Positions 14,771 to 19,703 of a stretch of DNA of 64,000 nt are shown piece by piece (position 1 is the stretch's first letter; each line of letters begins with the position of its first letter). Position numbers and translations under genes: made by a program. The stretch is from Ignavibacteria bacterium. GTDB taxonomy: Bacteria; Bacteroidota; Ignavibacteria; Ignavibacteriales; Ignavibacteriaceae. Under the pieces are notes generated by a model. It did not search any database, had not been told where the DNA came from, and saw only the letters and a list, made by a program, of their open reading frames with translations. The stretch covers positions 1 to 64,000 of the forward strand of contig JAUXVN010000039.1 of NCBI GenBank assembly GCA_030684555.1, written 5' to 3'.

Positions 14771-15556
14771 ATGACATCCCGATCAAACAAATTTATGCTT
14801 ATCTCTTTTATAGCGACAATAGTTTTTATAATAACCGGATGCAGCAATAGGGAAAAGATTACCAATCTTTCGCAACTTGACGGGAAAGAGTTTGCAGTTC
14901 CAACTGGGACAGTTGCCGATAAACTTGTTTTATCAAAATTTCCGAATGCTAAATTTAAGTATTTTAATAGCGTACTTGATGCAAGTATGGCTGTAAAAGC
15001 CGGTAAAGCGGATGCCGCCGCATATGATGAACCGATCTTAAAAAATATTGCCGCAAAAAATCCCGGGTTAAAAGTTCTTTCTGAAATGATCACAGTTGAC
15101 AATTACGGTTTTGCAGTGAATCTTGAAAATAGTGAGCTAAAAAATTCTATTGATAGTGTGGTTGCCCAATTAAAATCAACCGGTAAATATGATGAACTAT
15201 TAACCCGCTGGCTCCCTAAAGCCGGCTCCCCCGGCACATTACCTCAAATTCAATTGACAGGAAAAAACGGTACACTGAAATTTGGTACGTCGGCAGTAAC
15301 TGAACCATTCGCATTTATAGACGGGACACAAAAAGTCACCGGTTTTGATATTGAAATAGCTTATTACATAGCTCAAAAACTTGATATGCAGCTTGAAATT
15401 ATTAATATGGATTTCGGTGCGATGATACCTGCATTAATTTCAAAAAAAGTTGATATGATTGGCGCTTGTATTACTATTACAGAAGAGCGTTCAAAGAGTG
15501 TGTTATTTTCAGTCCCATATTATACCGGTGGTATTGCTGCATTAATTAAAGAATAA
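14771..15556 (+). CDS. Amino-acid-type solute-binding lipoprotein with reversed lobe order
   Basis: A 261-residue lipoprotein (signal ending ITGC, Cys24). Residues ~30-150 look like the second lobe of a family 3 solute-binding protein (LSQLDGKEFAVPTGTVADK, VKAGKADAAAYDE, LKSTGKYDELLTRWL). Residues ~165-261 look like the first lobe (GTLKFGTSAVTEPFAFIDG, VTGFDIEIAYYIAQKLDM, MIPALISKKVDMIGA, ITEERSKSVLFS). In ordinary members the order is the opposite, so the protein appears circularly permuted. It is the first gene of a four-gene ABC operon, 12 bp before the fused permease. The ligand is unknown; amino acids or cystine-like compounds are plausible. Confidence 0.88.
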   Translation: MTSRSNKFMLISFIATIVFIITGCSNREKITNLSQLDGKEFAVPTGTVADKLVLSKFPNAKFKYFNSVLDASMAVKAGKADAAAYDEPILKNIAAKNPGLKVLSEMITVDNYGFAVNLENSELKNSIDSVVAQLKSTGKYDELLTRWLPKAGSPGTLPQIQLTGKNGTLKFGTSAVTEPFAFIDGTQKVTGFDIEIAYYIAQKLDMQLEIINMDFGAMIPALISKKVDMIGACITITEERSKSVLFSVPYYTGGIAALIKE

Positions 15557-15568
15557 CGGAAATCAATA

Positions 15569-17836
15569 ATGAAAAAAAATATTGTCGTTTGGTTTGTTTA
15601 TTCAATTCTTATTTTACTGCTGACAAGCTGTAGTGATACAAAAACATCAATTACTAAATTAGAAGATATAAAGAATATCTCTATTGGTGCGATGACCGGT
15701 ACCACCGGTGAACAAATTGCCATTACAAGATTTCCTGAAGCCAAAACAAAAAGTTTTGACGATATCATGGATGCTATTGCTGCATTGAAGTCAAATCAAA
15801 TTGAAGCAGTTATTACGGCATTTCCAACAGCATTAAATGTTACAAAGCATAATCAAGATTTAACAATCCTTTCTGAAGCCGTTGATTTTGAGAATACCTG
15901 TATTGCAGTAAAAAAGGGGAATGACGAGTTTCTTTCAACTCTTAATAATATAATTACTGAGCTTGAGAATGACGGCACATTAGCCGATATGAAACGGAGA
16001 TGGTTAAAAAATGATTTGTCCCCTTACGATGAACCAAATATTTTACTTCCAGAAAAAGGAAAACTGCTAAAGATTGGTACAAGCGCTACAAGAGAACCAT
16101 TCTGTTTTGTCGATGGAAATCAAAGAGTAACGGGACACGATGGTGAATTTGCAAGGAGAGTAGCTGCAAAACTAAATAGACAGATGCAGTTTGTTGATAT
16201 GAAGTTCTCTGCATTGATTCCTGCACTGCAATCAGGTAAGGTTGATATTATTGTAGCCGGAATGAGTTCAACCGAGGAGCGCGCAAAATCGGTCGATTTT
16301 AGTAAATCATATTTTAGAAACTCACAAGTTTTAATAGTTAAAAAGAGTGATGTATCAGACAATGTAATAGCAACAACACCGCTACTCCGAACTCCTTCGG
16401 ATCTAAAAGATAAAAAAATAGGTGTGCTGCTTGGTTCTGTTCATGATACTTACGCAATAAAAAATTATCCCGAAGCTGCATTACTCCAATATAAAAGTCC
16501 GCCGGAATTAGTTCTTGGCGTAAAGTCAGGTAAAATTGATGCTGCCCTTTATACAACCGAAACATTACTCGAAATTCTCCGTTTGGATAATGAATTGCAA
16601 ATGCTTGGCGATACACTCTTCACAATCCCTATAGGTATGGGGTTTAATAAAGGGAATAGTCAACTCAGGGAGAAATTTAATCAATTTCTAAAAGATATTA
16701 AGAGTGATGGTACTTTTGATGACATGAAAAATCGCTGGGTATTAAAGGGTGAAACCATAATGCCGGAGATTAAAAATTCTAAAAGAAACGGAACGCTTAT
16801 TGTCGGGACTGTAAGCGATAAAGGATTACCATTCACTATTGTTAAAGATAATCGAATGATAGGATTCGATATTGAAATATCTGAAAGATTTGCAGCCTAT
16901 CTCGGAAAAGAATTAAAACTCGTTGATATGGAGTTCGGAAGTTTGATTATTTCGGCGGTTACAAACAAAATCGAAATGATCTCAAGCACGTTGATGATCA
17001 CAGATGAGCGGAAAAAGCAAATTGACTTTTCCGATGAATATATGCGGCTTGGTGCAAGTGTTTTTGTTTTGGGAAAAAATCTTCAAACAAAAAATGTAAT
17101 CGGGGAAAGTTCAGAGAAAACTGAATCAATTATAACCAATTCATTTTTGTACTCACTTAAAGAGAGTTTCTATAACAATATAGTTTTAGAAAATCGTTAT
17201 CTATTGATTTTAGATGGTCTTCAGACAACAATAATTATTTCAATACTTGCAACAATATTTGGAACGCTGCTCGGTGGACTGATTTGTTTTATGCGAATGT
17301 CTAAAAACAAAATTTTATTAATACCGGCGAAGATTTATATATCAATTTTACGCGGTACGCCTGTTCTTGTAATTTTGATGATAATCTTTTATGTCGTGTT
17401 TGCATCTGTAGATATAGAACCTGTTATTGTTGCAGTGATTGCATTCGGACTCAATTTTGCCGCATACGTTTCTGAAATGTATAGAACCGGAATTGAAGGC
17501 GTGGATAAAGGGCAAACTGAAGCAGGTATCGCAATGGGTTTTACCAAGGTAACTACTTTTATTTATATCATTCTTCCTCAAGCTGTGAAAAGAATTTTGC
17601 CTGTTTACAAAGGAGAAGTTATTTCACTTGTTAAAATGACATCGATAGTCGGATATATAGCAGTTCAGGATTTAACCAAAGCAAGTGATATTATTCGTAG
17701 TCGTACATTCGATGCATTTTTTCCTTTAATCATGGTTGCAGTTTTATATTTTATTATCTCATGGCTTCTTATGTTTTCACTTGGATATGTTGAACGAATG
17801 ACGACTCCGAAGCCTAAATTGAAGAGGGGAGTGTAA
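15569..17836 (+). CDS. Fused solute-binding (two permuted modules) and HisM/GlnP-type permease
   Basis: A 755-residue lipoprotein-permease fusion (lipobox LLTSC, Cys21). Lobes read in order second (28-148), first (164-258), second (275-393), first (406-503), then a linker and a membrane domain (~540-745). The permease carries the EAA loop AGIAMGFTKVTTFIYIILPQ, marking the polar amino-acid family. Each pair repeats the reversed lobe order of the neighbouring lipoproteins. The acylated N-terminus and membrane C-terminus would hold four lobes at the outer face of the inner membrane. One base separates its stop from the ATPase start, so expression is tightly coupled. Confidence 0.9.
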   Translation: MKKNIVVWFVYSILILLLTSCSDTKTSITKLEDIKNISIGAMTGTTGEQIAITRFPEAKTKSFDDIMDAIAALKSNQIEAVITAFPTALNVTKHNQDLTILSEAVDFENTCIAVKKGNDEFLSTLNNIITELENDGTLADMKRRWLKNDLSPYDEPNILLPEKGKLLKIGTSATREPFCFVDGNQRVTGHDGEFARRVAAKLNRQMQFVDMKFSALIPALQSGKVDIIVAGMSSTEERAKSVDFSKSYFRNSQVLIVKKSDVSDNVIATTPLLRTPSDLKDKKIGVLLGSVHDTYAIKNYPEAALLQYKSPPELVLGVKSGKIDAALYTTETLLEILRLDNELQMLGDTLFTIPIGMGFNKGNSQLREKFNQFLKDIKSDGTFDDMKNRWVLKGETIMPEIKNSKRNGTLIVGTVSDKGLPFTIVKDNRMIGFDIEISERFAAYLGKELKLVDMEFGSLIISAVTNKIEMISSTLMITDERKKQIDFSDEYMRLGASVFVLGKNLQTKNVIGESSEKTESIITNSFLYSLKESFYNNIVLENRYLLILDGLQTTIIISILATIFGTLLGGLICFMRMSKNKILLIPAKIYISILRGTPVLVILMIIFYVVFASVDIEPVIVAVIAFGLNFAAYVSEMYRTGIEGVDKGQTEAGIAMGFTKVTTFIYIILPQAVKRILPVYKGEVISLVKMTSIVGYIAVQDLTKASDIIRSRTFDAFFPLIMVAVLYFIISWLLMFSLGYVERMTTPKPKLKRGV

Positions 17837-17837
17837 C

Positions 17838-18926
17838 ATGATCAGAGTAGAAAATTTGTCGAAGAAATTCGGTGAACTTACGGTATTGAAAGAAATCAAT
17901 ATTGAAATTCATAAGGGAGAAGTGATTTCTATTATTGGTCCCTCCGGTACGGGGAAAAGTACATTTTTACGCTGTCTTAATTTGTTGGAAACCCCAAGCG
18001 GCGGAAAAATATTTATCGATGAAATCGATATATTGGATAAGAGTACTGATGTTCCCAAGATTCGTCAAAAAATGGGAATGGTTTTTCAATCTTTTAATCT
18101 TTTCAGCCATCTCACGGTTATGGAAAATTTGACGATCGGACAAATTAAATTACTTGGCCGCAAGAAAGAAGAAGCCGAACAGAAAGCAATGGATTTACTT
18201 AAGTTAGTAGGACTTGCAGAAAAAGCTGACAGTTTTGCCGATGAACTTTCGGGTGGGCAAAAACAGAGAGTTGCTATCGCCCGCTGTTTATCAATGGATC
18301 CGGAGATTATTCTTTTTGATGAACCGACTTCTGCCCTTGATCCAACTATGGTTAGTGAAGTTCTTGCGGTTATTCGCCGGCTGGCAAAGGAAGGAATGAC
18401 ATTAGCAATAGTTACTCATGAAATGGATTTTTCACGGGATGTTTCCAACAGAGTTTTTTACATGGACGAAGGTTTGATTTATGAAGATGGTTCGCCTCAA
18501 CAGATATTTGAAAATCCACAAAGGGAAAAAACGAGAGCATTCATCAATAGAATCAGAAGTTTTAATTATAAAATAGACAGTCCCGATTTTGATCTCTACG
18601 CAATGAATGCTGAAATCGAACGTTTTTGTGAGAAGCATGTTCTCCCCAAAAAAATGATAAATAATGTGCTGCTTATTCTCGAAGAACTTATGATGATTAA
18701 TAAATCTGTATCAAAAGAAATTGATGTGAATCTAACTTTGTCATACTCTGAAAAACGGGATACACTCGAAATCATTTTCGAAAGCGGTGGTGATGAAGGA
18801 AATATCCTTGAAAAAATTGATCAGGACGAGATAGGTTTAATGATAATTAATAATCTGACCGAGAGCATTGAATATTCAAGTCTTAACAATAGGAACAAAT
18901 TAAATATGTTCTTAAAGAAAGGTTGA
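17838..18926 (+). CDS. Polar amino-acid ABC ATPase with RsbW-like C-terminal domain
   Basis: A 362-residue protein. Residues 1-240 are a normal GlnQ-type ATPase: Walker A GPSGTGKST (34-42), signature LSGGQKQR (137-144), Walker B ILFDEPTSALDP. About 120 further residues follow, where GlnQ proteins usually end. This tail (ALPHA: AEIERFCEKHVLPKKMINN; then LLILEELMMIN, LEIIFESGGDEGN, DEIGLMIINNLTESIEYS, NRNKLNMFLKK) follows the order of an RsbW/SpoIIAB-like GHKL kinase fold. Its ATP-lid residues are poorly kept (the N-box Asn is shifted by one, the G1 Asp is Glu), so it may be a binding or sensing domain rather than an active kinase. Confidence 0.9.
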   Translation: MIRVENLSKKFGELTVLKEINIEIHKGEVISIIGPSGTGKSTFLRCLNLLETPSGGKIFIDEIDILDKSTDVPKIRQKMGMVFQSFNLFSHLTVMENLTIGQIKLLGRKKEEAEQKAMDLLKLVGLAEKADSFADELSGGQKQRVAIARCLSMDPEIILFDEPTSALDPTMVSEVLAVIRRLAKEGMTLAIVTHEMDFSRDVSNRVFYMDEGLIYEDGSPQQIFENPQREKTRAFINRIRSFNYKIDSPDFDLYAMNAEIERFCEKHVLPKKMINNVLLILEELMMINKSVSKEIDVNLTLSYSEKRDTLEIIFESGGDEGNILEKIDQDEIGLMIINNLTESIEYSSLNNRNKLNMFLKKG

Positions 18927-18932
18927 AACGTA

Positions 18933-19703
18933 ATGAAAAGTACTTTCATCTTTATCGTGTTGTTAAGCTTTGTGTTTGTTTCATGTTCAAAGAAGAATGA
19001 AAAAATAAACGATATCTCACAACTATCTGATAAAAAGATTTGTGTCCTCACGGGTTCAGCAGGTGATATCGCTGCAAGAAAGTTTTTCCCTAATGCAAAA
19101 TTTCTTGATATGGTTTCGGCTGCGGATGCCGCTTTAACAGTAAAAACCGGTAAAGCAGATGCATTTATTCATAATAAAAGTGTATTGCTAAATATAATAG
19201 ATAAGGAAAGCGAATTAATTATTCTCGATAAACCTATCTCTGAAGTACTGATTGCAGGGGCGGTAAGAAAAAATAATGAAACCTTACTTAATGAAATAAA
19301 TAAAGCTTTAAATAAATTGAAAGCTGAAGGTATTTTATACGAGATGAAAAGAAAATGGATAAGCCCAAAATATCAATCGGTACCGGAGCTGCCGTTGCTG
19401 CAAACCAATAATCAAAATAGTATTCTCAAGATGGGGACATGTGCAAGAGCCGAGCCGTTATCATTTTTATATAATAATATTATTACGGGGTTCGATATAG
19501 AATTGGCTCTCAGAATCGGTGAAATAATTGGTAAAAAAATAGAAATAACTGATATGACGTTCGAGAGTTTAATCCCTGCACTGCAATTGGGGAAAATTGA
19601 TTTTGCATTCTCAAATTTTAATGTAACCGAAGAGCGTAAAAAGTTTGTTGATTTTTCGGAAGAGTATCTTTCAAACGATATTTCTGTTTTGGTAAAGAAA
19701 TAA
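18933..19703 (+). CDS. Second stand-alone solute-binding lipoprotein with reversed lobe order
   Basis: A 256-residue lipoprotein (signal ending FVSC, Cys18). Residues ~26-146 are second-lobe-like (ISQLSDKKICVLTGSAGD, VKTGKADAFIHN, LKAEGILYEMKRKWI). Residues ~158-256 are first-lobe-like (ILKMGTCARAEPLSFL, ITGFDIELALRIGEI, LIPALQLGKIDFAFS, VTEERKKFVDFSEEYLS). It follows the ATPase gene by 6 bp and closes the operon. It differs from the first lipoprotein enough to suggest a different ligand or a partner role. Confidence 0.87.
   Translation: MKSTFIFIVLLSFVFVSCSKKNEKINDISQLSDKKICVLTGSAGDIAARKFFPNAKFLDMVSAADAALTVKTGKADAFIHNKSVLLNIIDKESELIILDKPISEVLIAGAVRKNNETLLNEINKALNKLKAEGILYEMKRKWISPKYQSVPELPLLQTNNQNSILKMGTCARAEPLSFLYNNIITGFDIELALRIGEIIGKKIEITDMTFESLIPALQLGKIDFAFSNFNVTEERKKFVDFSEEYLSNDISVLVKK

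Follow-up and report, generated by a model that had tools for sequence, protein, structure and literature searches.

The window, by which we mean the whole 64 kb stretch of DNA analysed here, carries four genes of an ABC importer in a tight run on one strand: a solute-binding lipoprotein, a permease fusion, an ATPase fusion and a 256-aa solute-binding protein, in that order (Table 1). The product of the third gene matches NCBIfam PRK09493, the GlnQ/ArtP-type importer ATPases, over residues 1-239 (E 1.4e-90, below the equivalog cut-off), and its ATPase domain was matched by Foldseek to 4yms_A with 55% identity and a TMt of 0.98. The Walker A motif, the LSGGQ signature, Walker B and the H-loop are invariant among 63 aligned members. 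The fused protein provides the ATPase to an ABC importer of the polar-amino-acid type, and its transporter partner is the permease fusion encoded just upstream.

Table 1. Coordinates of the importer genes and of the domains and motifs of the fused ATPase.
Feature	Position	Strand	Detail	Basis
Solute-binding lipoprotein	14771..15556	+	261 aa, permuted halves	Pfam
Solute-binding domains fused to BPD_transp_1 permease	15569..17836	+	755 aa	Pfam; gene order matched in relatives
ABC ATPase fused to pseudo-RsbW domain	17838..18926	+	362 aa plus stop	ORF, translation, Pfam, AlphaFold2 (full-length protein, pLDDT 92.1)
GlnQ/ArtP-type ATPase domain	17838..18545	+	aa 1-236; Walker A GPSGTGKST, LSGGQ, Walker B and H-loop intact	
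Degenerate RsbW/SpoIIAB-type (HATPase_c_2) domain	18546..18923	+	aa 237-362, 126 aa	
Conserved first helix of the tail, candidate partner-binding surface	18594..18635	+	aa 253-266 (LYAMNAEIERFCEK)	Conservation; helix in AlphaFold2 model
N-box remnant	18681..18701	+	aa 282-288 (EELMMIN); canonical Asn position is Ile287	Alignment to intact RsbW
G1-box remnant	18777..18812	+	aa 314-325 (FESGGDEGNILE); canonical Asp position is Ser316	
G2-box remnant	18825..18848	+	aa 330-337 (DEIGLMII); Gly333 kept	
Solute-binding protein	18933..19703	+	256 aa, permuted halves	Pfam; equivalent position in several relatives

A C-terminal domain related to anti-sigma factor kinases

A sequence-only reading of this DNA had proposed that the ATPase carries an RsbW-like (GHKL) extension, to be checked by a profile search and a structure prediction, and both bear it out. 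The Pfam profile HATPase_c_2 (PF13581) matched residues 253-357 with an E-value of 0.0012 for the whole protein and 7.1e-5 for the isolated domain, a sub-threshold match at 23.3 bits against a curated cut-off of 27.4. Chance does not account for it, since this profile also picks up 73 of 83 homologous tails (best E 8.5e-9), a profile-profile comparison of the tails with the intact RsbW proteins encoded beside the fusions of relatives gave E 1.3e-11, and the top folds in the PDB are those of RsbW, SpoIIAB and UsfX.

The tail was modelled by AlphaFold2 with a pLDDT of 92.7 and a pTM of 0.87, and its predicted elements follow the order E-H-H-E-E-H-E-E. The top PDB matches of this model in Foldseek and VIA-align were Bacillus subtilis RsbW, Bacillus SpoIIAB, mycobacterial UsfX and the RsbW domain of Rv1364c, and VIA-align gave Z-scores of 12-14 over 104-123 residues against RsbW-type structures. 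Many of the top structural matches were solved together with STAS antagonists: RsbV/RsbW (6m37, 6m36), UsfX-RsfB (8ih8) and SpoIIAB-SpoIIAA (1th8, 1tid, 1til, 1thn). A sequence search of the PDB with the tail or the tail profile gave no significant match, so that fold comparison alone provided these structures. An identity as a GHKL domain of the histidine kinase type was rejected, with Z-scores of 7-8 as against 12-14 for the RsbW-type proteins. Pfam found no TOBE or ACT domain in the tail, and the predicted fold, GHKL/RsbW, is neither of these extensions nor an unrelated one.

By sequence similarity and its predicted Bergerat-type fold, the tail is a member of the HATPase_c_2/RsbW family. 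Its likeness to the anti-sigma kinases SpoIIAB, RsbW and UsfX, in homology as in predicted fold, extends over the whole 126 residues. The tail family differs from these kinases in its missing ATP- and Mg-binding residues, its short ATP lid and its fusion to an ABC ATPase, and no sigma factor was seen nearby.

Loss of the nucleotide-binding residues

Three motifs singled out in the sequence-only reading are the degenerate N, G1 and G2 boxes of the tail, and the partial loss of nucleotide-binding residues noted there extends to the whole family. At position 287, where the N-box asparagine is expected, 91 distinct homologues have I, L, M, V, R, Y or A and none has Asn; at position 316, the site of the G1 aspartate, the same set has S, N, T, Y, G, C or H and no Asp. 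In the profile alignment the ATP-lid segment of the tails is also shorter than that of intact RsbW, while the G2 glycine is retained in 76 of the 91 homologues. With both of these residues of an RsbW serine kinase replaced, the asparagine being the one that coordinates Mg/ATP and the aspartate the one that binds adenine, the tail appears to be a pseudo-kinase.

Conservation is found elsewhere in the domain. Asp252, Phe263 and Glu305 are invariant among the aligned homologues, Gly318 and Asn322 are also strongly kept, the first helix (LYAMNAEIE-FCEK) ranks with the best-conserved parts of the tail, and a Y-S-E-K hairpin is strongly conserved too. Since Asp252, Phe263, Glu305 and the first helix are not nucleotide ligands, this pattern fits a domain that was retained for binding something else, and the first helix may have a role in such binding.

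In a Chlorobiaceae clade that has no linked STAS gene (loci L073, L074, L076, L077, L085 and L088) the G2 region is degraded (e.g., DHSAESAIWGMMQ), which suggests relaxed constraint. A correlation between the G2 glycine and a nearby STAS gene (31/31 versus 20/32) was not significant after allowing for relatedness and was dropped.

Distribution and origin of the fusion

At least 128 relatives were identified in the genome contigs of bacteria and archaea that were scanned, and the 80 best-scoring loci, which do not sample the family evenly, were analysed. About 90 distinct homologues from many phyla keep both the extension and the junction, and the gene order of the transporter is matched in relatives, which answers the question raised in the sequence-only reading whether homologues in other genomes share this arrangement. 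The fusion occurs in at least 8 phyla, including Ignavibacteriota, Bacteroidota, Chlorobiota, Thermodesulfobacteriota, Pseudomonadota, Bacillota, Gemmatimonadota, Planctomycetota, Cloacimonadota and others, with the proviso that the phylum labels of some metagenome bins may be wrong. Cultured isolates are among the carriers, namely Trichlorobacter thiogenes, Methylobacter tundripaludum, M. marinus, Methylovulum miyakonense, Nitrosomonas communis, Rhodocyclus purpureus, two Sporomusa strains, Pelotomaculum propionicicum and Formimonas warabiya, the last with several copies in its genome.

A search of plasmids with the full-length protein identified a member on pSRC1 of Selenomonas ruminantium, whose annotation says no more than amino acid ABC transporter ATP-binding protein; with the tail alone as query, tblastn found no fused member on plasmids at E 0.01, and a search for close relatives in viral contigs found none either. 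The near-fixed length and junction of the fusion suggest a single fusion event. Within the window's own lineage the gene is patchy, being found in 9 of 97 near genomes at E 0.01 (one weak hit included), and the 41 nearest genomes contain no other close GlnQ-type ATPase, the next ABC ATPases being 38-40% identical. Horizontal spread is therefore likely.

Partner-switching genes beside the fusion

In the loci of relatives, where genes were called by a longest-ORF rule, the fusion is recurrently followed by a STAS gene of about 111 aa and then, in many cases, by an intact RsbW kinase of about 140 aa. Recurrent upstream genes encode a Cache-HAMP-SpoIIE phosphatase, often together with an NMT1-type binding protein. 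A STAS gene on the same strand is present within 1.5 kb downstream in 28 of the 79 loci with enough downstream sequence; its start lies -24 to 94 bp after the fusion stop in 27 of them and at 1129 bp in the remaining one. Counted over all 80 loci, STAS is found in 34, where the density of STAS genes in the window's genome would predict about 2.6; this control is a density estimate rather than a matched gene set because near relatives offer no close non-fused GlnQ ATPases. SpoIIE is encoded upstream on the same strand in 19 of the 20 loci that have a downstream STAS and more than 4.5 kb of upstream sequence.

By a simple pattern, the N-box (E-x3-N) is intact in 12 of 13 linked same-strand RsbWs and the G1 aspartate in 13 of 13, and the serine motif [YF]ISS-x-G is present in all 27 STAS proteins of the profile set. 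Many relatives, though not all, have the partner-switching set of PP2C phosphatase, Ser-site STAS protein and intact kinase linked to the fusion.

The arrangement of these genes varies. In methanotrophs and nitrifiers an RsbW-type gene lies convergent after STAS; in a second Chlorobium copy (L163, L164) the fusion-STAS-RsbW trio precedes the solute-binding and permease genes; and in four loci (L016, L025, L056 and L071) STAS or RsbW is upstream of the fusion. Just past the trio the genes differ between loci and belong to metabolism or transport, and the ten proteins scanned there included no sigma factor. In many linked operons (L022, L023, L031, L042, L089 and others) an NMT1/THI5-type solute-binding protein is encoded directly before the Cache-HAMP-SpoIIE phosphatase and may be its ligand-presenting partner.

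The linkage is by no means general. STAS is absent from slightly more than half of the relatives' loci, some of which end at contig ends, and at least 7 changes of linkage fall on supported branches of the tree, with 16 on the best tree. Neither the operon of the fused gene nor the rest of the 64 kb window contains a STAS, SpoIIE or intact RsbW gene. These observations count against a partner switch acting on the importer. Other contigs of the same genome yielded 11 matches to STAS, 13 to SpoIIE that pass the cut-off, and several RsbW genes, and the STAS proteins nearest the operon-linked kind are encoded on contigs C22 and C61. The fused protein of the window groups with Ignavibacteriota and related sequences, two of which (L016 and L025) have a linked STAS. 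With none in the window's operon, the gene for any STAS partner would need to lie at another place in the genome.

On contig C22 of the window's genome (G000:C22:240-1715, L165) a STAS gene is directly followed by a gene for a 492-aa protein with an RsbW-type N-terminus, the remainder of which looks acetyltransferase-type by eye.

A possible partner switch acting on the importer

The tail has probably lost ATP binding while keeping its predicted fold, which points to a docking site rather than a kinase. On balance we lean towards a partner-switching circuit that gates the ABC importer, with a STAS protein docking on the RsbW-derived tail of the ATPase, as the most economical reading of these loci. 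Whether fused ATPases of this kind form a widespread and unrecognised class of importers that are direct outputs of partner switching, STAS docking gating uptake post-translationally, seems to us evenly balanced. The sequence-only reading had suggested that the tail is regulatory and might either read the nucleotide state or bind a partner to gate transport. A regulatory role gains support and would still be a putative one; of the two modes, partner binding is favoured because relatives encode STAS and the rest of the circuit beside the fusion.

In relatives, the membrane-bound Cache-HAMP-SpoIIE phosphatase would sense an external signal and dephosphorylate the STAS protein. Unphosphorylated STAS might then dock on the pseudo-RsbW tail and alter importer activity, by activation or by inhibition, and phosphorylation of STAS on its serine by the intact RsbW kinase would release it from the tail. 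The importer would thereby occupy the place of the sigma factor in the classical circuit. In the window's organism, where the importer and the tail are present, the same circuit may operate with a STAS partner encoded elsewhere in the genome. Arg20 of SpoIIAB, which is needed for both of its partners, aligns to Ala or Thr in the tails; this speaks against a partner switch and means that the docking surface must differ from that of SpoIIAB.

The main rival turns the importer into an input: the tail would sequester or release STAS according to transport or ATP state, thus reporting nutrient flux to the kinase and to other STAS targets in other parts of the cell. Transport-coupled signalling is established for other ABC importers, and linkage of the fusion to STAS, RsbW and SpoIIE is compatible with either direction of the signal. 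However, a complete sensory phosphatase, with its Cache domain in the periplasm, is already encoded in the linked operons and has the look of the input, and no consistent alternative output gene is linked, so we regard this direction as unlikely.

The tail might instead serve only for structure or dimerisation, stabilising the ATPase dimer in the manner of other C-terminal domains, with no STAS partner; the STAS, RsbW and SpoIIE proteins would then regulate something else. SpoIIAB and RsbW proteins form dimers, more than half of the loci, the window's included, are without a linked STAS, and it is possible that the tail is such a partner-free module in these lineages. As a general explanation it is improbable, since the proximity of STAS to the fusion (less than 100 bp in 27 of the 79 loci, across several phyla) and its recurrence in other gene orders are not explained by chance or by co-location of unrelated functions.

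The former nucleotide pocket might bind a small molecule such as the imported solute and inhibit transport, as the ACT-type domain of MetN does. This would agree with the remodelled pocket region and the strongly kept Asp252, Phe263, Glu305, Gly318 and Asn322, but strong conservation falls on the first helix and the Y-S-E-K hairpin and the linked genes are those of protein partners, and we think it quite unlikely. Sensing of energy state by unusual binding of ATP or ADP, the other mode envisaged in the sequence-only reading, could draw on the frequent G2 glycine; it is very unlikely and was set aside, as the N-box asparagine and G1 aspartate are missing throughout and the lid is shortened.

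Comparison with known systems

Partner switching is known mainly for the control of sigma factors and, in a few cases, of diguanylate cyclases. An importer with a docking domain would, if the partner switch proposed here is correct, be a new class of output as well as a new form of post-translational control of ABC transporters. It would also be the second example, after MlaB-MlaF, of control by a STAS protein over an ABC ATPase. As the family is present in cultured bacteria, the model is directly testable.

In the MlaF-MlaB complex the ABC ATPase MlaF has the STAS protein MlaB bound to it, and small proteins were proposed as regulators; the authors found no further PDB entry that combines STAS with ABC domains (PMC7367683). 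The fusion, with its putative STAS binding, resembles this complex in tying a STAS protein to the ATPase of an ABC transporter. MlaB binds the ATPase core and the tail of MlaF is only about 25 aa long, whereas the fusion has a full RsbW-type domain; its relatives also have a linked dedicated kinase and phosphatase. Among the ABC ATPase tails that are named in the passages covered (TOBE, ferredoxin-like and R-domain) there is no RsbW-like one (PMC7367683). The tails of MetN (ferredoxin-like/ACT), MalK and ModC (TOBE) are likewise C-terminal domains of importer ATPases and are generally thought to be regulatory, as stated there (PMC7367683), but they are of unrelated fold, the tail of the fusion being of the GHKL/RsbW fold and accompanied by genes for protein partners.

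The SiaABC partner switch was proposed to act on a diguanylate cyclase and not on a sigma factor (PMC7647112). SiaABCD and HptB-HsbR-HsbA share with the linked operons a HAMP-PP2C phosphatase (SiaA), a kinase, an antagonist-like protein and, on the reading favoured here, an output other than a sigma factor (PMC7647112), and differ in that the proposed output is a diguanylate cyclase, whereas here the transporter ATPase itself would carry the docking domain. Neither STAS proteins nor partner switching come up in a 2023 review on how transporters are modulated (PMC10710835). No published description of such a fusion or operon was found in the open-licence literature; subscription journals may hold one.

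Arrangement of the solute-binding domains

The solute-binding proteins of the window's operon have the two halves of SBP_bac_3 in the order H2 then H1. In the 261-aa lipoprotein H2 spans residues 34-148 and H1 residues 169-261, the 256-aa protein is H2-H1 too, and the permease fusion has H2-H1-H2-H1 before the permease. Given this order, the free-standing solute-binding proteins look circularly permuted, and the permuted order is also visible in relatives (e.g., L163). The number of solute-binding halves on the permease is variable, as seen from a comparison with L013, L015, L016 and L030: the protein has 755 aa in the window, 993-1008 aa in near relatives and a maximum of about 1250 aa in methanotrophs. 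In L057 and L058 (6231-8381) the ATPase and the pseudo-RsbW tail are part of a single 717-aa frame with an extra N-terminal part, which is probably a permease.
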